NCBI RefSeq assembly: GCF_014132355.1
Contig: NZ_BLZO01000032.1
Span: 1 to 50,678 of the forward strand
Origin: Okeania sp. KiyG1
GTDB taxonomy: Bacteria > Cyanobacteriota > Cyanobacteriia > Cyanobacteriales > Microcoleaceae
Reading direction: 5' to 3'
Length of the DNA: 50,678 nt
Below the pieces are notes generated by a model. The model saw nothing but the letters and a program-made list of their open reading frames with translations. It made no database searches and was not told the origin of the DNA. Both the position numbers and the translations under genes were made by a program. Position 1 is the stretch's first letter. Every line of letters starts with the position of its first letter. This document shows, piece after piece, positions 7,438 through 50,678 of this stretch.

Positions 7438-7671
7438 GAATATACCTCTATTTTTAAGTCAAAATTCCCAGTCAAAAGCAATATAACTTTTAATTTTTAT
7501 CTATAGCAGTTTGCGCAGACAACAGCGAACAGGCAACAGACAATAGTGGGAATAAAAAGCCTATTTTATCAGACTTTTAGCTATTGGCTAATTCCTACAA
7601 TTTGTCAATATACCAGCGCGCACTGCCATAAAAGTTATTCTAAGTATTGAAAATAGTACAGCTAATTTTTT

Positions 7672-9343: not shown

Positions 9344-9897
9344 TACAAAATTTGTGGCCCAGTCACATAAGGCAAATGTAGCGCTACGCGCAAAAAGGTT
9401 TTGTCAGCATACTCTACTTCAGATATCATTAGACCCGCCACAAAAGCACCAATCTCAATGGAAAAACCCAAGTGTTCTTTCATTAATTGATAATTGATAA
9501 TGGATAATTGATAATTACCTCAGGTTTTAACTGTTACGGAATTGAATATAAGGAAATATTATTTCTTTTCTTGGTCGATGGTCGGACAGCGAGGAGACCT
9601 CGCCATCCCACCCTACGGGAAGCTGCGCTACGACTGCTGTCTTGGTCGATTGGATATGGGGAGGGGACCTCGCCATCCCTCGACCGCTTTTTTCCCCTTA
9701 AAAGGGGAGGGTTCAAGGCACGAATTATTTAATTATTAATTATTAATTATTAATTATTAATTATATAGACCTATTTGCAGAAGCGATCGCCCCACCGTAA
9801 TACCAATAATTTCTGGTGGCTGATTTAAAGCATGTAAAACTGCTAACATTAATAACTTCTGTAGAGGCGATTCGCCAATCGTCCCTACAGACTTCTG
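9344..9897 (-). pseudogene. Relic of a Kef-type cation:proton antiporter
   Basis: Two in-order minus-strand fragments of a KefB-like membrane antiporter survive. The upstream one (about 9897-9766) reads PLQKLLMLAVLHAL and PEIIGITVGRSLLQIG. The downstream one (about 9495-9344) reads LGFSIEIGAFVAGLMISE and then VEYADKTF. About 60 codons that normally lie between them are missing and a dispersed repeat element occupies the gap. No other part of the gene is present. The family identification rests on remembered family motifs and is moderately secure. Confidence 0.6.
9490..9765. mobile_element. Dispersed repeat element inside the antiporter relic
   Basis: This is bounded by TAATTGATAATGG-type and TTATTAATTA-type AT repeats. 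It contains GGAAATATTATTTCTTTTC, a CTCGCCATCC/GGTCGAT segment and TTTTTCCCCTTAAAAGG. It has the same order and orientation as 21605-21800. Small ORFs on both strands inside it are by-products of the repeat. Confidence 0.75.
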
Positions 9898-11287: not shown

Positions 11288-11700
11288 GACTTTTGTGACA
11301 GCTCCCGTCCCTAAACTCTTGCGAGCTATAGCGTGGGCTTGGAGTTGACTCCCGGCAACCCGTCGGACATTTCATGTTCGCGCAGCGACTCCGCAGGAGA
11401 GACTTTGGTTTTACTTAACCCTGCTGCCCCACCACAGAAGGAGTAGAGAATTTCTCGCTCTACCTATTTTCCTTGAAAGTTTTACATACAAGGGACAGCT
11501 GCAATTTCTGCACAATTCCTTGTAAAACCCCATACTTTCAGTTGTCTAGGTTAAGTTTGTAAGCGGATGGTCGCTCTTGTATTTAACTTTACCTACATTA
11601 ATTATTTTACTGGCAATTCATCCCATCGTCAAATCGGAGATTATGACGTGCGGCTTCTCGCCCGAACAGCTAAATAAATGTATCAAGACTCAGAAAATTT
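11288..11700 (-). pseudogene. Right end and C-terminal scrap of an IS200/IS605 tnpB
   Basis: Just after the peptidase stop, GTGACAGCTCCCGTCCCTAAA resembles the right-end hairpin of the local IS200/IS605 elements. Read on the minus strand, about 11400-11330 encodes SDGLPGVNSKPTL and a stop, a tail often seen on cyanobacterial TnpB. Further upstream on the minus strand no convincing TnpB codons remain. Most of 11420-11700 is unassigned, with an inverted pair TTTTACA...AAGG and CCTTGTAAAA around 11480-11530. Confidence 0.5.
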
Positions 11701-11707
11701 GTTTTAT

Positions 11708-12170
11708 TTGACTTCTCACCCGACTGAAGTACGGGTGATTCTAAGGAGTTGTTCCAAATCGGTTTAAAAACACGATTCGTCACACCTACTAGCTGTCACT
11801 GGACTTAATTTTCCCAGTGGTGGTAGCTCATATACCACCTACAGACTCAGATATGCTGACAAAAATGCCACACACATTGCCTTTACTTTTTTAGTTTTAT
11901 TTTCAGAGTGGTTTTACACTTATGAGTGAGCCATAAATCCCTATCTCTGCTGCCTACTTGCCTGTGCCAAGCGTCTTGATAGAACAGTGCTATTAGTTTC
12001 TTACTGGCGGGAGTTTCACCTCTACAAGCATTGAGTCTATGGGACAAACCTTATTCCTACTCGTATTCATTGACTATTATCCCACATTTTGGGATACTTG
12101 GGAATAAATTCCCACAACTTGTTTTCATCCAAGGGCTAAAGCCACTTGGCTTTCAACTGCACGTTTTTTT
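11708..12170 (+). ncRNA. Structured non-coding element, HEARO/IscB omega-RNA-like, copy 1
   Basis: About 463 bp that recur with high identity at 27000-27469. The element opens with the hairpin CTCACCCG...ACGGGTGATTCTAAG. It then has GGTGGTAGCTCATATACCACC, the motif AGTGGTTTTACACTTATGAG, and TGCTGCCTACTTGCCTGTGC. It closes with two hairpins (TCCCACATTTTGGGA, CCAAGGGCTAAAGCCACTTGG-type) and a T7 run. No ORF is shared by the copies. Inter-copy differences fall mostly outside the stems. The order and the GTGGTTTTACAC core resemble the HEARO RNA that precedes iscB genes, but no iscB follows here. The class call is from memory of the motif and is uncertain. It lies 150 bp upstream of comFB. Confidence 0.6.
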
Positions 12171-16911: not shown

Positions 16912-17210
16912 TTGACTACTCCCCGCAACTGTTGCCGAGGGGATTCTAAGTTGATACTACGCAACACCGATAAATCCTTGTTGCTTCGTTTCTCATGATT
17001 CTGACCAAAGATTATATGTTCTTTGGGGACGATGATCATTGTGCCCCTACACAGTCGGCTTAAGTCTAAACTTAGCTTTCTGCTTACTTTTGTTTAAACG
17101 TTTGTACATCCAGATACATAGCACCGGACAACTAAAGTTGTCTAGTCTAAACGACTCGCTTGTTTTCATCCCCCGGTTAAAACACGGAGGTTTTCAACGT
17201 CGCTTTTCGG
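16912..17210 (+). ncRNA. Structured non-coding element related by its ends to the HEARO-like copies
   Basis: The 5' end is TTGACTACTCCCCG, then a stem closing with GGGGATTCTAAG, the same plan as at 11708 and 27000 (hairpin plus GATTCTAAG). The 3' end, CTTGTTTTCATCCCCCGG to TTTTCAAC, corresponds to CTTGTTTTCATCCAAG to TTTCAAC there. The interior differs and lacks the GTGGTTTTACAC core, with stems such as GGACAACTAAAGTTGTC. A plus-strand 69-codon frame across it has no family resemblance. It could be another TnpB or IscB guide RNA or only a non-autonomous element. Confidence 0.45.
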
Positions 17211-21531: not shown

Positions 21532-22115
21532 AAGTTAGTAACATTTAGACTTTCAGAATTAGAGTTAGTATAGTAGTCGCCACTATAGTTAGGACATCGG
21601 TTCATTAATTGATAATGGATAATGGATAATGGATAATTGATAATTACCTCTGGTTAAAACCGCTCTTGATTGAATATAAGGAAATATTATTTCTTTTCTT
21701 GCTCGATTGGATATGGCGAGGTCTCCTCGCCATCCCTCGACCGCTTTTTCCCCTTAAAAGGAGGCTTCAAGGCGCGAATTATTTAATTATTAATTATTAA
21801 TTATTCGGTAATTATGATGATTTATGACGGGAGTAATATGCATGATTTTATGACGCGAGCAAGATGCTCGTACTAATTGTCAAACACCAACCTGGGGGTT
21901 GCTATAGATGCTACGGCAGGTAACAAGAAAAATAATTTATCTAGTCAATAGTAGATGGTTTTTTATAGCCAAATAATTCAGGTTTAAAGTCTTTGATGTC
22001 AACAATAAATAAAGACAAAAAATTATGCTTACCAACTCTATAATTTTAAGGAGAGGTAATTATTAATTGTTGAAAAAATCAAGAATAGTATGAGGTTTTA
22101 AGTGAAATATTAATT
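21532..22115. repeat. Partial duplication of the ndhS 3' end and its downstream DNA, itself interrupted
   Basis: 21532-21570 repeats ndhS codons (AAGTTAGTAACATTTAGAC, CAGAATTAGAGTTAGTA). The text resumes at 21907 with GATGCTACGGCAGGTAACAAG and continues through AATAGTAGATGGTTTTTTATAG, TTTGATGTCAACAATAAAT and CCAACTCTATAATTTT to about 22115, matching 21172-21380. The middle (21571-21906) is inserted DNA. No start or N-terminal codons are duplicated, so this is a pseudogene fragment. Confidence 0.9.
21571..21906. mobile_element. Composite insertion inside the ndhS duplicate
   Basis: About 336 bp sit between TTAGTA and GATGCT, which are adjacent in the intact ndhS. The insertion begins TAGTAGTCGCCACTATAG and ends GGGGTTGCTATA, compatible with the TATAG-type ends seen elsewhere. 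Its interior (21605-21800) repeats the element found at 9490-9765. Confidence 0.75.
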
Positions 22116-24776: not shown

Positions 24777-25260
24777 GCTTTTTAATTTGCCAAGCAACCA
24801 TTAAGTTTTTTCAGATTGGAATGTTAGTAGTATTGGTAGGAATATATATGACATCAAATTCGGTGGAATTGGAAATAAAAAAAAATCTCCAATCGTTATT
24901 TCAGTTATCAGTTATTAGTTACCGAATAGTTACCGAAAAATTCTGGTCTAAAGCCTCTCCTTTAAAGGAGAAACAAGAAAAAAATTTTCATGATTAGTTA
25001 ATCCTATCCGTTTTCAAGGAGAGGTAATTGTTAATTATTAATTATTAATTGTTGAACAGTACCTCTGCAATAAGGAACCTTGACATAAGGAATATTCTCT
25101 TTTCTCTTGGTCGATTAAATATGGCGAGGTTTCCTAGCCATCTCTCGACCGCTTTTTATCCCCTTGAAAGGGGAGACTTGAGACCAAAGTTTTTCGGTCA
25201 TAACTACACTTATCAAAGTGATTATCTGTACTCCTGATTCCTGATTCCTGACTCCTAAAG
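24777..25260. repeat. Repeat cluster upstream of rpsB
   Basis: 24905-25056 is a copy of the common dispersed family (CCGAAAAATTCTGG to AGGAGAGGTAATTGTTAATT). 25057-25200 is the block CAGTACCTCTGCAATAAGG to TTTTTCGGTCA that is nested inside the element at 7672. A CTGATTCCTGATTCCTGA run lies at 25233-25257. No gene is seen. Confidence 0.75.
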
Positions 25261-26999: not shown

Positions 27000-27469
27000 T
27001 TGACTTCTCACCCGACTAAAGTACGGGTGATTCTAAGCAGTTCCATCCGAATCGGTTTAAAAACACGATTCTGAAAAGCTACTAGCTGTCACTGGACTTG
27101 ATTAAATTTTTTCCAGTGGTGGTAGCTCATATACCACCTACAGACCCAAAGTGTGCTGACTCCGAATGTCGCATACATCGCCCTTACTTTTGTCTGACTT
27201 TCAGAGTGGTTTTACACTTATGAGTGAGCTATAAATCCCTATCCTTGCTGCCTGCTTGTCTGTGCCAAGCGTCTTGGTAGAACTATGCTACTAGTTTCTT
27301 CCCGACAGGAGTTTCACCCCTACTAGCAAAGAGTCTATGGGACAAACCTTGTTCCTACTTACATCTATTAGTATTATCCCACATTTTTGGGATACTTGGG
27401 AATAAATTCCCACAACTTGTTTTGATCCAAGAGCTAAAGCCACTTGGCTTTCAACTGCACGTTTTTTTT
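27000..27469 (+). ncRNA. Structured non-coding element, HEARO/IscB omega-RNA-like, copy 2
   Basis: This 470-bp relative of 11708-12170 has the same 5' hairpin and GATTCTAAG, the GGTGGTAGCTCATATACCACC stem, GAGTGGTTTTACACTTATGAG, ATAAATCCCTATC, GGAGTTTCACC and GAGTCTATGGGACAAACC, and ends with GCACGTTTTTTTT. Divergence is concentrated in loops. The CCAAGAGCTAAAGCCACTTGG hairpin is kept although the bases differ from copy 1. It separates rpsB from tsf and ends 27 bp before the tsf start, so it could act on tsf expression. A minus-strand 83-codon frame here is not coding-like. Confidence 0.6.
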
Positions 27470-30604: not shown

Positions 30605-32854
30605 CTATATATTAATTAGATAGATCAATGGGTTTCCTCAAAGAAAGTAAAATAAAAGAAGTCAAAAAATTTAATGCTGATATTGATTGAAGTGTGAATT
30701 TCTATAAATGAGCGACTAAGAAAATATTACATAAAATAATATCCTATGAATAACGAAAAAGAAAAGATAGACTGGGAAAGACTACAAAAAGCTTTGTCAG
30801 TATAAGTACAATATGGATTTCAAAATATCCAGGGAAAACAATATATATTTAATGAATTTATTAATTATATAGATAAATTGGTTTCCTCAAAGAAAGCAAA
30901 ATAAAAGAAATAAAAAAAACTGGGCGTTGCTGAATCAAGGGATGAATCTTTTGGAACAGGTAAATCTCATCTTTAATACTTCATACTTATTTTTTATCCA
31001 AGGCTACAATTAATCCCACAAATATGCAACGCCAAAAACTGAATGCTGATATTTATTGAAGTGTGAATTTCTCTAAATGAGCGACTAAGAAAATATCACA
31101 TAAAATCAGATGCTATGAATAACGAAAAAGAAAAGATAGACTGGGAAAGACTACAAAAAGCTTTGTCAGTAGAAGTACAATATAGATTTCAAAATATCCA
31201 GGGAAAACAATATATATTTAATGAATTTATTAATTATATAAATAAATGGGTTTCCTCAAAGAAAGCAAAATAAAAGAAGTCAAAAAACTGAATGCTGATA
31301 TTTATTGAAGTGTGAATTTCTCTAAATGAGCGACTAATAAAATATTACAGAAATAATCTGCCATGAATAACGAAAAAGAAAAAGTAGACTAGGAAAGACT
31401 ACAAAAAACTTTGTCAGTAGAAGTAGAATACGGTTTTCAAAATATCCAATGAGCGACTAAGAAAATATTACATAAAATCAGATGCTATGAATAACGAAAA
31501 AGAAAAAGTAGACTGGGAAAGACTACAAAAAACTTTGTCAGTAGAAGTAGAATACGGTTTTCAAAATATCCAGGGAAAACAATATATATTTAATGAATTT
31601 ATTAATTATATAGATAAATTGGTTTCCTCAAAGAAAGCAAAATAAAAGAAGTCAAAAAACTGAATGCTGATATTTATTGAAGTGTGAATTTCTCTAAATG
31701 AGCGACTAAAAAATATTATTATATAAATAATCTGCCATGAATAACGAAAAAGAAAAGATAGACTGGGAAAGACTACAAAAAGCTTTGTCAGTAGAAGTAC
31801 AATATAGATTTCAAAATATCCAGGGAAAACAATATATATTTAATGAATTTATTAATTATATAGATAAATTGGTTTCCTCAAAGAAAGCAAAATAAAAGAA
31901 GTCAAAAAACTGAATGCTGATATTTATTGAAGTATGACTTTCTCTAAATGAGCGACTAAGAAAATATTACATAAAATAATATGCTATGAATAACGAAAAA
32001 GAAAAAGTAGACTGGGAAAGACTACAAAAAACTTTGTCAGTAGAAGTAGAATACGGTTTTCAAAATATCCAATGAGCGACTAAGAAAATATTACATAAAA
32101 TAATATGCTATGAATAACGAAAAAGAAAAAGTAGACTGGGAAAGACTACAAAAAACTTTGTCAGTAGAAGTAGAATACGGTTTTCAAAATATCCAGGAAA
32201 ACAATTTATCTATTTAATGAATTTATTAATTAAATATATAAATGGGTTTCCTCAAAGGAAGCAAAATAAAAGAAGTCAAAAAACTGAATGCTGATATTTA
32301 TTTAACTATGCTTTCTCTAAATGAGCGACTAAAAAATATTATTATATAAATAATCTGCCATGAATAACGAAAAAGAAAAGATAGACTGGGGAAGACTACA
32401 AAAAGCTTTGTCAGTAGAAGTACAATATAGATTTCAAAATATCCAGGGAAAACAATATATATTTAATGAATTTATTAATTATATAGATAAATGGGTTTCC
32501 TCAAAGAAAGCAAAATAAAAGAAGTCAAAAAACTGAATGCTGATATTTATTGAAGTATGACTTTCTATAAATGAGCGACTAATAAAATATTACAGAAATA
32601 ATCTGCCATGAATAACGAAAAAGAAAAAATAGACTGGGAAAGACTACAAAAAGCCTTGTCAGTAGAAGTACAATATGGATTTCAAAATATCCAGGAAAAC
32701 AATATATATTTAATGAATTTATTAATTATATAGATAAATGGGTTTCCTCAAAGAAAGCAAAATAAAAGAAGTCAAAAAACTGAATGCTGATATTTATTGA
32801 AGTATGACTTTCTATAAATGAGCGACTAATAAAATATTACAGAAATAATCTGCC
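30605..32854 (+). repeat. Nine partial tandem copies of the recG 5' end
   Basis: Copies of the recG start (MNNEKEKIDWERLQKALSVE) with about 100 bp of leader occur at ATG positions 30746, 31115, 31363, 31487, 31737, 31986, 32110, 32360 and 32608. The intact start follows at 32855. Spacing is 247-250 bp, or exactly 124 bp where half a unit has been deleted (31363-31487, 31986-32110). The first interval is longer because of an inserted element. In most full-length copies the recG text stops after about 36 codons and continues as EFINYIDKLVSSKKAK and a stop, so each could encode a peptide of about 52 residues. Copies 1 and 3 have internal stops. The copies share their upstream sequence with recG, so they may share its promoter. 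Confidence 0.95.
30923..31033. mobile_element. 111-bp miniature element with 8-bp target duplication inside the recG-leader array
   Basis: GGCGTTGCTGAATCAAGGG at the left faces GGGATTAA-type and GCAACGCC at the right. AAAAACTG is present on both sides (30915-30922, 31034-31041). The other units of the array read AAAAAACTGAATGCTG without interruption and so give several empty sites. Confidence 0.92.
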
Positions 32855-35339
32855 ATGAATAACGAAAAAGAAAAAATAGACTGGGAAAGACTACAAAAAG
32901 CCTTGTCAGTAGAAGTACAATATGGATTTCAAAATATCCAGGGAAAACAATATATATTTAATGACTTTTTAAGTATCAGTTTGAGCAAAGCACCAATAAT
33001 ATTACAAGGTTATCAAAATCAATTTCAGGATATATCTAATAAATTTGTCAGCTATCCAGAAATGACCAGAGAAGAGCGGCAAGAATTACTAGAAACAACT
33101 AAATATTTTTAGAAAAAATGCAGTATATATCTGAAGGAGTAAAGCCGGAAGAAACAATAAAAAAAGAGAGATTTACACCAGAAGAAAAAACTCAAGAAAG
33201 ACTAAAACAGAGTTCTGTTACTCCCCAAAAATATAGCGATAAACTTGATGTAGAACAACCATTAACAGAAGTCAAAGATATTAGCAAAAGAAACAGCGAT
33301 CGCCTAGCGACATTAGGATTATATACAGTACGAGAACTACTTTATTATTATCCAAGAGACCACATAGATTATGCTCGTCAAGTAAATATTCGTGACTTGG
33401 AACCTGGAGAAACTGTCACAATAATTGGCAAAGTTAAACGATTTAATTGTTTTTCTAGCCCTAAAAATAAGAAATTAACTATTCTCGAACTTACTCTCAC
33501 AGATGCTACAGGTCAAATCAAAATAAGTCGCTTTTTTGCCGGACCTAGATTTAGTAATAAAGGTTGGCAAATGCAGCAGAAAAAAATCTATCCAGTCGGT
33601 GCAACAGTAGCTGTTTCAGGTTTGGTTAAAGAAAATAAATATGGGAAAAATTTAGATAACCCAGAAATAGAAGTTCTTGATAGTGAAGGCGGTCAAATTG
33701 AATCCATGAAAGTTGGTCGTTTAGTACCAGTTTATCCCTTAACAGATGGAGTAGGTGCAGATGTTGTTAGACGAGCAATATTTACGGTTTTACCAACAGC
33801 AGAACAATTGTCAGATACATTGCCTGAAGGATTACTAAATCAATATCAATTAATAGATTTAAAAATGCTATTAAAAATATTCACTTTCCTATAGATAGAG
33901 ATTGTTTAGCAGCAGCTCGTCGTCGCTTAGTTTTTGATGAATTTTTCTACCTACAATTAGGATTATTAAAACGTCGGCAACTGCAAAAAAAAGTAGAAAC
34001 AGGAATAGCTTTACCAACTGCAGGAAAATTAATTGAGCAATTCTATAAACTCCTGCCATTTGCGTTAACTAATGCTCAAAAAAGGGTAGTTAATGAAATA
34101 CTTAATGACCTACAAAAACCTGAATCAATGAAAAGATTAGTACAAGGAGATGTAGGAGCAGGAAAAACAGTAGTAGCAGTTGTGGCGATGTTAGCAGCAA
34201 TTCAAGCAGGTTATCAAGCAGCTTTAATGGCACCAACAGAAGTATTAGCAGAACAACATTATAAAAAATTAGTTGCTTGGTTTAATCTCTTACATTTACC
34301 AGTTGAACTATTAACTGGTTCGACAAAAGTAGCAAAACGCCGAGAAATTCACTCTCAACTTGAGACCGGAGAATTACCTGTATTAGTCGGTACTCATGCC
34401 CTAATTCAAGAAGCAGTAAATTTTCACAAATTAGGTTTAGTAGTAATAGATGAACAACATAGATTTGGCGTTCAACAAAGAGCAAAATTACAACAAAAAG
34501 GTGAATCTCCCCACTTTTTGGCAATGACAGCTACTCCCATTCCTAGAACTTTAGCTCTGACATTACATGGAGATTTAGATGTTAGTCAAATAGATGAATT
34601 ACCACCAGGAAGACAACCAATTCAAACAACTACTTTGACTGGAAGGCAACGTAAAAAAGCTTACGATTTAATCCGCCGAGAAATAGTTCAAGGTAGACAA
34701 GTTTATATAGTTTTACCCTTAGTTGAAGAGTCAGAAAAATTGGATGTAAAATCCGCAGTTGAAGAACATCAAAAGTTAGCAGAAAAAGTTTTCCCAGAAT
34801 TTCAAATAGGTTTACTTCATGGCAGAATGACAAGTTTAGAAAAAGACGAAGCAATTAGTACATTTCGGGATAATAAAACTCAGATTTTAGTATCTACAAC
34901 TGTGGTGGAAGTGGGGGTTGATGTACCGAATGCCACAGTAATGTTGATTGAAAATGCAGAAAGGTTTGGTTTGTCTCAGTTACATCAGTTGCGGGGGCGA
35001 GTGGGACGTGGTGTCCATAAGTCTTATTGTTTGTTGATGAGGGGTGCGGGTTCGACAGATGCTGTGGAACGTTTGAAAGTTTTGGAGCAATCTCAGGATG
35101 GATTTTTTATTGCGGAGATGGATATGCGTTTGCGGGGTCCTGGTCAGGTTTTGGGAACGAAGCAGTCTGGGTTGCCGGATTTTGCTTTGGCCAGTTTGGT
35201 TGAGGACCAGGAGGTTTTGGAGTTGGCGCGGGGTGCTGCTTTTCGCGTGATGGAGAAGGATGAAAGTTTGAATAGTTGGCCTCTGTTGAGGAGGGAGTTG
35301 GAATGGCGGTATCAGAAGATGATGGGGGGTCGATTTTGA
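32855..35339 (+). pseudogene. recG: ATP-dependent DNA helicase RecG, two frameshifts
   Basis: RecG drives fork regression and branch migration. The cyanobacterial N-terminal extension occupies 32855-33112 (DWERLQKALSVEV to YPEMTREERQELLE). The wedge OB-fold follows (LYTVRELLYYYPRDHIDYA, ETVTIIGKVKRF). The helicase core from about 33890 has GDVGAGKTVVAVV, VVIDEQHRFGVQQR, TATPIPRTLALTLHGD, TTVVEVGVDVPNATVM and HQLRGRVGRG, all motifs intact. The frame changes at 33105-33110 (KYF/LEKMQYI, a T run) and at about 33863-33867 (DLK/NAIKNIHFPIDRD, an A run). One added base at each restores about 827 codons. It follows rpsB and tsf as elsewhere in cyanobacteria. The internal ATG at 34128 is not the start. 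It could be functional if the two indels are base-calling errors. Confidence 0.92.
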
Positions 35340-45999: not shown

Positions 46000-48356
46000 A
46001 TTTCTTCCCCCTACCTAGACTACTGAGAGTAAAAATCTCCATTGCCAAATTCAAATCTTTATCTGACAAAAAACTATAACGTTACAGATTTGCCTCTACT
46101 TCCCTAAGATGGAAAAGTAAGTCTTTGAAAGATTTTCTCTACTTACACTCAAAATCTCAATTCAAAAATCAATATCAATATCTGGGAACAAAACTATAAC
46201 GTTACAGATTTGCCTCTACTTCCCTGAGATGGAAAAGTAAGTCTGAGAAGATTTTCTCTAATTACACTCAAAATCTCAATTCAAAAATCAATATCTGGGA
46301 AAAAAACTATAACGTTACAAATTTGCCTCTACTTCCCTGAGATGGAAAAGTAAGTCTGAGAAGATTTTCTCTAATTACACTCAAAATCTCAATTCAAAAA
46401 TCAATATCTGGGAAAAAAACTATAACGTTATAGATTCACCTCTACTTCCTGAAGATGGAAAAGTAAATCTGAGAAGATTTTCTCTAATTGCACTCAAAAT
46501 CTCAATTCAAAAATCAATATCAATATCTGGGAACAAAACTATAACGTTACAGATTTTTCTCTACTTCCCTGAGATGGAAAAGTAAGTCTGAGAAGATTTT
46601 CTCTAATTACACTCAAAATCTCAATTCAAAAATCAATATCAATTATCTGGGAAAAACTATAACGTTATAGATTTGCCTCTACTTCCCGAAGATGGAAAAG
46701 TAAATCTGAGAAGATTTTCTCTAATTGCACTCAAAATCTCAATTCAAAAATCAATATCAATTATCTGGGAAAAAACTATAACGTTATAGATTTGCCTCTA
46801 CTTCCCGAAGATGGAAAAGTAAATCTGAGAAGATTTTCTCTACTTAACACTCAAAATCTCAATTCAAAAATCAATATCAATATCTGGGAAAAAAACTGTA
46901 ACGTTATAGATTTCTCTCTACTTCCCTGAGATGGAAAAGTAAGTCTGAGAAGATTTTCTCTAATTACACTCAAAATCTCAATTCAAAAATCAATATCAAT
47001 ATCTGGGAAAAAAACTGTAACGTTACAGATTTTTCTCTACTTCCCTGAGATGGAAAAGTAAGTCTGAGAAGATTTTCTCTAATTACACTCAAAATCTCAA
47101 TTCAAAAATCAATATCAATATCTGGGAACAAAACTATAACGTTATAGATTTGCCTCTACTTCCCTGAGATGGAAAAGTAAGTCTGAGAAGATTTCTTCTA
47201 CTTACACTCAAAATCTCAATTCAAAAATCAATATCAATTATCTGGGAAAAAAACTATAACGTTATAAATTTGCGTCTACTTCCCTGAGATGGAAAAGTAA
47301 GTCTGAGAAGATTTTCTCTAATTACACTCAAAATCTCAATTCAAAAATCAATATCAATTATCTGGGAAAAAAACTATAACGTTATAAATTCACCTCTACT
47401 TCCCTGAGATGGAAAAGTAAGTCTGAGAAGATTTTCTCTAATTACACTCAAAATCTCAATTCAAAAATCAATATCAATTATCTGGGAAAAAAACTATAAC
47501 GTTATAAATTTGCGTCTACTTCCCGAAGATGGAAAGATAAGTCTCGGAAGATTTCTTCTACTTACACTCAAAATCTCAATTCAAAAATCAATATCAATTA
47601 TCTGGGAAAAAAACTATAACGTTATAGATTTCTCTCTACTTCCCTGAGATGGAAAAGTAAGTCTCGGAAGATTTCTTCTACTTACACTCAAAATCTCAAT
47701 TCAAAAATCAATATCAATTATCTGGGAAAAAAACTATAACGTTATAGATTTCTCTCTACTTCCCTGAGATGGAAAAGTAAGTCTCGGAAGATTTCTTCTA
47801 CTTACACTCAAAATCTCAATTCAAAAATCAATATCAATTATCTGGGAAAAAAACTATAACCTTACAGATTTCTCTCTACTTCCCTGAGATGGAAAAGTAA
47901 GTCTGAGAAGATTTCTTCTACTTACACTCAAAATCTCAATTCAAAAATCAATATCAATTATCTGGGGAAAAACTATAACCTTACAGATTTCTCTCTACTT
48001 CCCTGAGATGGAAAAGTAAGTCTCGGAAGATTTCTTCTACTTACACTCAAAATCTCAATTCAAAAATCAATATCAATTATCTGGGAAAAAACTATAACCT
48101 TACAGATTTCTCTCTACTTCCCTGAGATGGAAAAGTAAGTCTGAGAAGATTTCTTCTACTTACACTCAAAATCTCAATTCAAAAATCAATATCAATTATC
48201 TGGGGAAAAACTATAACCTTACAGATTTCTCTCTACTTCCCTGAGATGGAAAAGTAAGTCTCGGAAGATTTTCTCTAATTACACTCAAAATCTCAATTCA
48301 AAAATCAATATCAATTATCTGGGAAAAAAACTATAACGTTATAAATTTGCTTTTAC
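46000..48356. repeat. Tandem array, 20 copies of about 118 bp
   Basis: The palindrome CTATAACGTTATAG or a variant occurs at about 46074, 46194, 46309, 46422, 46540 and on to 48326, every 114-120 bp. Each unit also has CTACTTCCCTGAGATGG, AAAAGTAAGTCTGAG, GAGAAGATTTTCTC (a second palindrome) and ACTCAAAATCTCAATTC. In one unit (47003) both arms have changed together to CTGTAACGTTACAG. Several late units have CTATAACCTTACAG, which breaks the palindrome. There is no ORF. It ends 180 bp before polA. Confidence 0.95.
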
Positions 48357-48536: not shown

Positions 48537-49340
48537 ATGTCTGCTAACCCTCCTACTGCTGTCCTCGTTGATGGCCATTCCCTTGCCTTTCGTTCCTACT
48601 ATGCTTTTGGCAAAAGTCGTAGTGGAGGCTTAAAAACTTCTACGGGCATCCCCACCAGTGTTTGTTTTGGTTTTCTGAAGTCTTTGTTAGAAGTTATGGA
48701 GACTCAAAAGCCAGAATATTTAGCGATCGCTTTTGATTTAGGACAACCTACATTTCGCCATGAAGCTGACAAAAACTATAAAGCAAATAGACAAGAAGCA
48801 CCTGACGATTTAATTGTTGATGTGGGAAATTTGAAGGACATTCTTAAAGCTTTTAATATATCTATAATTACTGTTGCTGGTTATGAAGCGGATGATGTAT
48901 TAGGAGCTTTAGCGCAAAAAGCTAGTGCTGCTGGTTTTCGGGTCAAAATTCTTTCGGGCGACCAAGATTTATTTCAATTAATAGATGTGGAAAAAGGTAT
49001 TAGTGTTTTACATTTAGCAGCAGGTAAAGGTAGCACTCCTAAAGAGTTTGGTCCTGAAGAAGTTAAGGAAAAATTGGGTATTTTACCGAATCAAGTTGTT
49101 GATTATAAAGCTCTTTGTGGAGATGCTTCTGATAATATTTCTGGTGTTAGGGGTATTGGGAAAAAGACAGCAGTTAAGTTGTTGAATGAATATGGTTCTT
49201 TAGCAGAAATTTATAGTTCTCTGATTGACATCCTCCCGACGCTGCACTTGCGTGACAGCAGGGGATTCCCTAGCATCACTGTTAGAGACTTTCTGTTTCA
49301 ATGCACCCGCCTTTCCTACGGAATGCTCCGCAAACGGTGA
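48537..49340 (+). CDS. polA: DNA polymerase I, 5' nuclease region only, truncated by an insertion sequence
   Basis: The frame encodes the PIN/FEN-type 5'-3' exonuclease of polymerase I. It has TAVLVDGHSLAFRSYYAF, TSVCFGFLKSLL, AIAFDLGQPTFRHE, YEADDVLGALA, ILSGDQDLFQLI and DASDNISGVRGIGKKTAVKL, which carry the metal-binding acidic residues. True codons stop at EIYSSL (49224). From 49225 the reading enters an IS200/IS605 right end, adding about 38 foreign residues. The 3'-5' exonuclease-like and polymerase domains are not in the window and must lie beyond 50678 if present. The truncated protein could still be an active flap nuclease. Confidence 0.9.
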   Translation: MSANPPTAVLVDGHSLAFRSYYAFGKSRSGGLKTSTGIPTSVCFGFLKSLLEVMETQKPEYLAIAFDLGQPTFRHEADKNYKANRQEAPDDLIVDVGNLKDILKAFNISIITVAGYEADDVLGALAQKASAAGFRVKILSGDQDLFQLIDVEKGISVLHLAAGKGSTPKEFGPEEVKEKLGILPNQVVDYKALCGDASDNISGVRGIGKKTAVKLLNEYGSLAEIYSSLIDILPTLHLRDSRGFPSITVRDFLFQCTRLSYGMLRKR

Positions 49341-49423
49341 TTTACTCTCCTCGGGTCTAAAAGCGCGCTCCACAGACTGACACTGCTCCTCCCGCAGCCT
49401 TCTTGGTGGGCGTTCCCTTGCGT

Positions 49424-50393
49424 CTAGCCTCCTCCGGAGGAGCTAAAGCTAACGCCGACGCGGGTTCCCATCCGCAAAATATTTATACTTGCATTGATGT
49501 CCCGGTCATGGTGACTACCACATTCAGGACAATCCCACTCTCTAATATTTAGAGGTAATTTTTCCACTACATAACCACAATTAGAACAACGTTTTGTTAG
49601 CGTTTGCGAAGCATTCCGATAGGAAAGCTCCTCTGAAAGAGGCACTAGGAAAATATCTATCAATCTTGATTAATTCCCGTCCATACCATTCTGCTTTGTA
49701 TTCTAATTGTCTAAGTAATTCTCCCCAGTTGGCATCTGATATAGCTCTTGCTAATTTGTGGTCTCTTGGTGCGCGTTCCGCAAGCGAGCTGGCGTCGTCG
49801 CGGGGTCGCACCGCTTTTTGACCATGTTCTTAACTGCCAAATCCTCAACTACTATCGTTTGGTTTTCTCTAATTAGTTGGGTTGTCAGTTTGTGAGTATA
49901 GTCAAATCTTGAATCTTTAATCTTGGCGTGTGTCCTAGCTACCTTTAGCCTAGCCTTTTGATAGTTATTAGATCCCTTGGTTTTTCTCGATAGAGACTTT
50001 TGAGTTAATCTCAGCTTTTTGTGTAATTTGTTTATATTCTTTGGGTTAGCAATTTTTTCTCCATTACTGGTAGTAACTAAACTGGTAATTCCGCGCGTCA
50101 ATACCTATTTGTTTCTGGACTGGCTTAAGTTTTAAATCTCTGGTATCATTGACTCTCAAAGATATAGACCATCTACTACTGGGGTCAAGTTTCACTGTTA
50201 TTGTTGTTGGCACACAGTCTTGCGGTAGTTGTCTACTCCATCTAATAGGTAACGGTTCAGAGCCCGATCGCTAAATAGACTTGACCATCTTTCCACTTAA
50301 ATGCCGACTTCGTAAATTCAGCACTACCACCCCATACGTTTTTTCTTAAAGTTGGGATATTTAGTCCGTCCACTAAAAAAGTTAGTGAAGGCT
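49424..50393 (-). pseudogene. tnpB: tnpB broken by two short palindromes, stop codons and a larger insertion
   Basis: Minus-strand text in order: NFFSGRTKYPNFKKKR, SAEFTKSAFKWKDGQVYLAI (50390-50270), SISLRVNDTRDLKLKP (about 50165-50115), ITSLVTTSNGEKI, KKLRLTQKSLSRKTKGSNNY, VVEDLAVKNMVK with the RuvC-II Glu, then HKLARAISDANWGELLRQLE, CSNCGYVVEKL...CPECGSH and DRDINASINIL. Insert one (49754-49808) sits between NMVK and DHKLARAI. Insert two (about 49600-49650, with TTTGCGAAGCATTCCGATAGG) sits between DRYFPS and CSNCG. At the upstream side the gene stops at AF/TNFF where the element at 50394 begins. Confidence 0.88.
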
Positions 50394-50678
50394 TTGACAT
50401 CTCCAGGGGTTGAAACACCCTGGATTCTGTGGTTAGTCCACCCCCATTTGGGATAAATCCACATTTGCTTAAAGCCTGTCAACAGACTCCTGAACTCCTC
50501 GGCATAGACAGAAATCTAGCTGTGAGTTTACTTTTTTTTATTAGCTTTCACGAGTGGTTTTACTCGCACTGGTTGGAGCAATCTTCTCGCTGCTCTAGCT
50601 GCCTACTTGCTTTTCGGTGCCGAATGCGGAGCTAACAGCCGTCGTAGGAAGTTAATTCCCCGTCTCCTGTCCACCGGA
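50394..50678 (+). ncRNA. Structured non-coding element, HEARO/IscB omega-RNA-like, copy 4, partial
   Basis: It starts TTGACATCTCCAGGG, loop, CCCTGGATTCTG, the same 5' hairpin plan as copies 1-3. Further in, CACGAGTGGTTTTACTCG and GCTGCCTACTTGCTTTTCGG match the core GAGTGGTTTTACACTTATGAG and GCTGCCTACTTGCCTGTGCC of copies 1 and 2. The stem around GTGGTTTTAC has changed on both arms (CACGAG/CTCGCACTGG). The window ends before any following ORF, so an iscB gene could lie beyond. Confidence 0.5.

Follow-up and report, generated by a model that had tools for sequence, protein, structure and literature searches.

The contig examined here raises the question of what a DNA segment of some 460 to 470 bp is when it recurs at full length and encodes no protein. 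The window, by which we mean the whole stretch of 50,678 nucleotides of contig NZ_BLZO01000032.1 (our C32) from Okeania sp. KiyG1, holds four related segments, termed A to D. An initial annotation had taken them for orphan structured RNAs resembling the HEARO/IscB omegaRNA, read from the plus strand, which might be either guide-RNA elements mobilized in trans or RNAs with a role for the host. The gene names rpsB, tsf and comFB are taken over from that annotation.

Extent and coding content of the elements

Elements A (11708 to 12170, minus strand) and B (27000 to 27469, minus strand) align end to end with 86% identity. On the plus strand each starts with TTGAC (from 11708 and 27000, respectively) and gives way to a flank that starts with GTAA (from 12171 and 27470). 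Neither contains an internal open reading frame (ORF) of at least 100 aa, and the annotation of two copies of this size lacking a conserved frame was exact, coordinates included. One frame, opening at 27422 (TTG), takes in the end of B and continues into the next gene, the one called tsf, to which the RNA strand of B is antisense. Counting A itself and fragments, 12 places match A in the genome (11 Mb, 198 contigs).

The other two segments are of different make. Element C (16912 to 17209, minus strand) shares just its ends with A, as had been noted, and carries between them the 3′ end of a tnpB gene (TnpB residues 381–432, at 17123–16974; 48% identity, E 1.9e-7). It is a tnpB 3′ remnant distinct from A, a deletion derivative that consists of a left end, the tnpB 3′ end, a guide scaffold and a right end; a second copy on contig C24 is 90% identical. 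Element D (50394 to 50678, minus strand), annotated as a partial and diverged copy, does begin at 50394 and is cut off by the contig end. It is a diverged, truncated member of the family, 67–88% identical to its relatives in the fetched loci, and it is inserted in a broken tnpB (49227 to 50385, minus strand; tblastn fragments and a PF01385 match).

Two 238-aa ORFs upstream of two D-type copies, RplA- and GrpE-like on reading, were set aside as coincidence. A D-type element at L155:6950-7595 stands directly before a match to the ribosomal L10 leader (59.9 bits, 7449-7595).

Transposon ends, target and empty sites

On the minus strand, A and B sit after TTAC and terminate in TCAA, with the left end of A at 12170 and its right end at 11708. 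We aligned 32 copies from six genomes (TTAC was located by string search and the boundary was seen in the printed alignment). The terminus GTCAA is present in 32/32 copies and TTAC adjoins the left boundary in 30 of them. GAAT precedes the right-end hairpin in 30 copies and AAAT in the other two, while 23/32 match AAAG before the left-end hairpin; in A this hairpin, with AAAG on its 5′ side, is read at 12129 to 12149 (minus strand). These are the motifs of IS608, with TTAC and TCAA as the left and right cleavage sites (CL, CR) and AAAG and GAAT as the respective guides GL and GR (PMC5934647). TTAC is given for IS608 in PMC8612924 as well; the excerpt of PMC6006769 gives neither TTAC nor TCAA. 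With insertion at TTAC, a TCAA end, no target duplication and subterminal hairpins flanked by AAAG and GAAT, A and B are non-autonomous elements of the IS608 type (family IS200/IS605). Presumably, they are moved by TnpA in trans, for which the genome offers 24 Y1_Tnp stretches, some of them broken.

Within the same alignment, short blocks flip between two states (TTTGCTA/AATGCTT and GGA/TCC), mixed across the copies. These are possibly loop changes by template switching.

The B site was compared across six genomes of the genus. The element is present in G000, G006 and G028 (the last with a different left flank) and absent from G013, G019 and G024, and two of the latter, G013 and G024, carry the exact pre-insertion junction. 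In minus-strand terms the empty site reads TTAC joined directly to the 3′ flank of the right end, which is the arrangement of a TAM plus guide. For A, the right-end string GATTCTAA is absent from the 900 nt upstream of comFB in all three relatives in which the gene-start string was found (G028, G024, G006; G013 gave just a 29-base match, and G019 was left out). These comparisons speak to the proposal that the elements are host regulatory RNAs or leaders of comFB and tsf. The location of A and B, and nothing else, favors such a role. An element that is missing from its site in half of the genomes, whose counterpart is missing before comFB in three relatives, and that is antisense to the gene it would regulate is a most improbable leader, and we do not retain regulation from position.

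A TnpB-type guide scaffold at the right end

The plus strand of each element opens with a hairpin and GATTCTAAG. The end pattern GACTNCTC...GATTCTAAG occurs 36 times in the genome at up to three mismatches, compared to no occurrence of the reversed pattern, and so is more frequent than chance. Thirty of these loci were fetched, of which seven are A-type. Among nine non-A loci, two (L050 and L061) have, on the opposite strand, open frames (432 and 411 aa, respectively) that end at the hairpin; L056 has a broken frame ending there, and some others have shorter pieces only. The L050 product, with which the L061 frame shares 60% identity, is a TnpB (PF01385, 61 bits against a cut-off of 30.5). In most loci, tblastn with TnpB proteins of other clades had overlooked the tnpB beside the end pattern, which reading of the loci revealed. 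What had seemed the start, the hairpin with GATTCTAAG, is thus the right end of IS200/IS605 elements seen in reverse, and the guide RNA is accordingly placed on the minus strand. The annotation was correct in that all four segments share one orientation; the RNA strand is most likely the minus strand, supported though not proven, and the supposed 5′ hairpin would be the 3′ end of the RNA.

A model of this region, R1, was built from the right ends (~147 nt) of 22 of 23 non-A loci (L072, too diverged, was left out), A and B not being included. It matches A on the minus strand over all 147 positions (73.4 bits, E 4.1e-12; 26 sources), and B (64.5 bits, E 2.2e-10) and C (116.4 bits, at 16912–17066) are likewise matched along the entire model on that strand. 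The match to D is not significant (18.8 bits, E 0.18). At E ≤ 0.01, R1 is found where tnpB has its 3′ end in 16 of 20 loci fetched for relatives of the L050 TnpB, and in 0/12 other tnpB loci of the genomes G168, G329, G026 and G011. In this genome it matches none of 41 control loci (0/30 other tnpB, 0/11 iscB/HEARO). The guide scaffold in A and B is thus that of a single TnpB clade, of which full-length open frames of 432, 444 and 439 aa reside in the same genome. By this homology A, B and C, and not D, are assigned putatively to the TnpB guide RNAs (reRNA/omegaRNA). The predicted scaffold, with the right-end hairpin and the terminal TCAA, spans 11708 to 11858 in A and 27000 to 27157 in B (both minus strand). 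Following the logic of TnpB guides (PMC8612924), the putative guide segment of A would be the 20 nt that immediately adjoin the right end on its 3′ side, at 11688 to 11707 (minus strand; length assumed).

TnpB of the L050 type was detected at E ≤ 1e-60 in 10 of 12 genomes. Two that carry elements with the inner domain R2 described below, G168 and G329, have no relative of it at that threshold; they hold 10 and 16 TnpB stretches, respectively, and R1 matched 0/6 of their tested TnpB loci. Considering that R1 matches are weak or absent in D-type copies, these may depend on a different TnpB, or on no TnpB at all.

Weighing a HEARO/IscB identity

One rival reading, which develops the initial annotation, takes the elements for orphan HEARO guide RNAs of IscB (or IsrB) that lie on the plus strand, with the 5′ flank as guide and an IscB acting in trans. 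Stand-alone omegaRNAs of this kind are known for IscB; in Ktedonobacter many orphan guide RNAs lie away from a nuclease gene. The search for iscB that the annotation had suggested succeeded for the genome, with 18 RRXRR stretches, and failed for the contig of the window, where there is none; HEARO itself occurs at 13 places in the genome, none of which is an element of the A–D type. The covariance search does not bear the assignment out. Rfam has no match in the window at the gathering threshold and four at E ≤ 10, none of them HEARO (RF02033) and none inside A–D. Seven further loci (five A-type and two D-type; less sequence) likewise gave no HEARO and no intron match at E ≤ 10. Neither R1 nor R2 matches the tested iscB/HEARO loci (for R2, L013–L015, L017, L018, L031 and L036), and neither a covariance match nor an association with iscB or isrB was found. 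With the right ends homologous to those of TnpB elements, and wobble pairs pointing to the minus strand (below), a HEARO identity is already contradicted, and we give it hardly any credence. The broader description of an orphan structured RNA family, with conserved R2 helices and no protein gene in A and B, stands.

One locus (L018:1426-2691) encodes an IsrB-like RRXRR protein of 421 aa, with PF14239 alone in Pfam and no adjoining HEARO match. Its candidacy as partner of the orphan RNA was dropped; about 200 nt free upstream of it could accommodate a local RNA.

A conserved structured domain in place of tnpB

Between the guide scaffold and a −10-like box lies a conserved region of ~157 nt, which we term R2. 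It occupies 11906 to 12062 in A and 27204 to 27360 in B (both minus strand), scoring 159 and 170.3 bits with the R2 model, of which both are training members; D matches at 50552–50678, where the contig end truncates it (40.4 bits), and C has no match. Neither have any of 32 tnpB loci, nor L050 and L061. The scaffold homology appears to extend to the last tnpB codons (AAAAGTAAGC), and R2 thus occupies the place of the ORF. The possibility that R2 is decayed tnpB coding DNA was rejected, as its local alignment to the tnpB ORF was no better than that of shuffles.

The fold was derived with RNAalifold from 22 copies (18 A-type, 4 D-type) and comprises a GGTTT/AAACC + GTCCC/GGGAT helix, UGCU/AGCA and a small hairpin. 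The inner strings GTGGTTTTACAC and ATAAATCCC, once read as reminiscent of the IscB guide RNA, contain the 3′ strands of the conserved R2 helix (AAACC and GGGAT) when read on the minus strand. We examined the helices on held-out copies: from 65 R2 segments, 22 near the training set and four near each other were dropped, the remaining 39 were aligned by sequence (MAFFT --add), and 17 of the 19 pairs were tested. Canonical pairs fill 629 of 658 cells (95.6%), compared to 28–58% in six slid controls, and both sides have changed in 9 of the 17 pairs, compared to 1–3 when slid; the test is not fully independent, because the copies are bounded by matches to the R2 model. Wobble pairs are GU in 49 cases and AC in 3 (21 and 3 without pair 18-150), an excess of GU that favors the minus strand.

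By folding energy, the whole-element alignment does almost equally well on the plus strand. Against column shuffles the z-score of the whole element is −8.4 on the minus strand and −7.5 on the plus strand (15 shuffles), and that of the R1 set is −7.3 and −4.1. For R2 it is only −2.1 (minus) and −0.9 (plus), and the lowest of 60 shuffles fell below the true value; folding energy is thus a weaker witness for R2 than pair conservation. A blind search for covarying columns in close copies returned no stacked pairs, clade structure dominating the signal. R2 is a conserved structured RNA domain, new here, whose helices are supported. Among the matches listed in a literature search, titles and abstract openings described nothing like R2 or orphan TnpB guide RNAs.

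A structured RNA on IS605-type ends brings to mind the IStrons, which combine group I introns with IS elements (PMC4227781), and the elements could likewise be self-splicing or self-cleaving ribozymes that make the insertion harmless. R2 is indeed a structured RNA, and D lies in sense inside its broken tnpB, as, by reading, a copy on contig C87 seems to do. Yet B is antisense to the next gene, no listed ORF other than the frame at 27422 reaches into A or B, and Rfam returned no group I or group II intron at E ≤ 10, where a very diverged intron might still escape. We consider a ribozyme function quite improbable.

A promoter-like box upstream of R2

In A, the −10-like hexamer GATAAT is read at 12076 to 12081 (minus strand), 13 nt upstream of R2. 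Of 65 loci, 60 carry a hexamer with at most one mismatch to TATAAT in the interval 4–14 nt upstream of R2, compared to 14.5% of shuffles; among the 39 held-out copies 36 do so, compared to 11.6%. Within 45 nt such a hexamer is present in 70 of 75 copies (43% of shuffles). As the copies are related, these counts are not independent events. They support, short of proof, a predicted internal promoter of the R2 elements.

Distribution across cyanobacteria

The elements are a feature of marine cyanobacteria. With strict filters and E ≤ 0.001, the R2 model finds 5 of 292 cyanobacterial genomes, this one included. Two belong to other families (G168, 109.7 bits; G329, 46 bits), and partial matches were seen in G026 and G011, from another genus of the same family. 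A DNA pattern derived from R2 itself was scanned across a collection of 84,980 species genomes and returned 69 loci, 66 of them cyanobacterial and three others. The R2 model matches exactly the 66 cyanobacterial loci, many of which are Okeania copies of the training set; the loci come from Okeania, Moorena, Hydrocoleum, Prochloron, Prochloraceae, Xenococcaceae and Microcoleaceae. At 36 of the 66, R1 (E ≤ 0.01) lies within ~240 nt on the 3′ side of R2.

The right end was sought in 65 R2 loci. GTCAA was found in 51 by a strict regular expression, after removal of five false hits (L181, L219, L222, L256 and L257); reading added GTCAA at L219, L240, L256 and L257 and TCAA at L202 and L207. No right end was found on reading L222, and at L220, L203, L214 and L199 the sequence ends first. 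Open frames of at least 110 aa touch 8 of the 65 loci, three of them overlapping R2 on the opposite strand (L190, L208 and L228).

This recurrence bears on a simpler account, in which A and B are plain MITEs or PATEs, ends-only IS608 derivatives moved by TnpA, the inner part being passenger DNA and the RNA inactive. The ends, the target and the empty site fit such elements completely, MITEs of this kind move without any guide RNA, and an ends-only IS605 sequence has been reported from Halanaerobium (PMC7290912). Passenger DNA is expected to decay, however, whereas the layout, the R2 helices with their compensatory changes and the −10-like box recur in Okeania, Moorena, Hydrocoleum, Prochloron, Prochloraceae and Xenococcaceae. 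An ends-only element accounts for the ends and not for the conserved R2, and we regard it as unlikely.

Other features of the window

At 49290-49376 (minus strand), close to where the broken tnpB has its 3′ end, Rfam gives a match to RAGATH-18 that stays below threshold (25.4 bits, gathering 44.9, E 1.6); RNAs derived from RAGATH-18 accompany IS607 TnpBs (PMC11061315). The window also contains a long array of ~119–120-bp repeats in two interleaved families (46026-48342), an array of some ten copies of a 75-bp repeat (1-878), ~124-bp repeats at irregular multiples of the period (30610-32968), and a short repeat family (TCTTGGTCGATTGGATATGG...) at 9640-9707, 21697-21764 and 25105-25172, with 79–85% identity to its reference copy.

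A guide RNA as the probable sole gene of a transposon

The explanation that we consider probable, and favor with fair assurance, is that A and B, with D as a more distant relative, belong to the non-autonomous IS200/IS605 (IS608-type) transposons and have a guide RNA, served in trans, as their sole gene. The annotation's suggestion of a guide-RNA element mobilized in trans is probably right. The sequences show the ends, the target, the empty B site, the homology of the A, B and C scaffolds to TnpB right ends and the conserved R2 helices. On the minus strand, the order would be TTAC target, left-end hairpin, small promoter, R2, TnpB-type scaffold, right-end hairpin, TCAA and a flank serving as guide. 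An IS608-type TnpA encoded elsewhere would excise and insert the single strand. Transcription would start at the internal promoter and run through the right end into the flank, and the RNA would be loaded by a TnpB of the clade that shares the scaffold, encoded elsewhere in the genome. In ISDra2, the donor joint (target plus 3′ flank) becomes the target of TnpB–reRNA (PMC8612924). Here the complex might similarly cleave the donor site once it is empty and reads TTAC plus guide, and repair from the sister copy would restore the element. Binding of TnpB and guided cutting by these RNAs are putative and suggested by the configuration of TTAC plus guide at the empty site. R2, which would replace the tnpB ORF, probably stabilizes the orphan RNA or aids the capture of TnpB, on a speculative view.

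Known systems share parts of this design. The TnpB reRNA/omegaRNA elements ISDra2 and IS608 have the right-end scaffold, a guide from the 3′ flank and a TAM that equals the TnpA target at the left end (PMC8612924); the elements described here differ in having no tnpB, a promoter-like box of their own and the added R2. Processing of the tnpB message itself can yield TnpB guide RNAs (PMC10278001). PATEs and MITEs derived from IS605 likewise have IS608-type ends, are protein-free and multicopy and presumably move in trans, whereas here an RNA domain is conserved across families. The stand-alone IscB omegaRNAs combine a 5′ guide with HEARO, in contrast to the TnpB type and 3′ guide of this family. 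IStrons also place a structured RNA on IS605-type ends, but here there is a guide scaffold and no recognizable intron.

We give an even chance to a bolder reading, that these are RNA-only transposons in which R2, with its own promoter, replaced tnpB and became fused to the scaffold, and which spread among distant cyanobacterial families on foreign TnpA and TnpB; R2 would then have a job of its own, in TnpB capture, RNA stability or catalysis. The case lends itself to testing: the ends are defined and the target is known, the same genome encodes candidate TnpB partners, and empty sites occur naturally. If the explanation is true, R2 would be an undescribed RNA domain, and a nuclease-free, self-promoted guide RNA gene, if conserved, would show that a guide RNA can itself be a selfish element.
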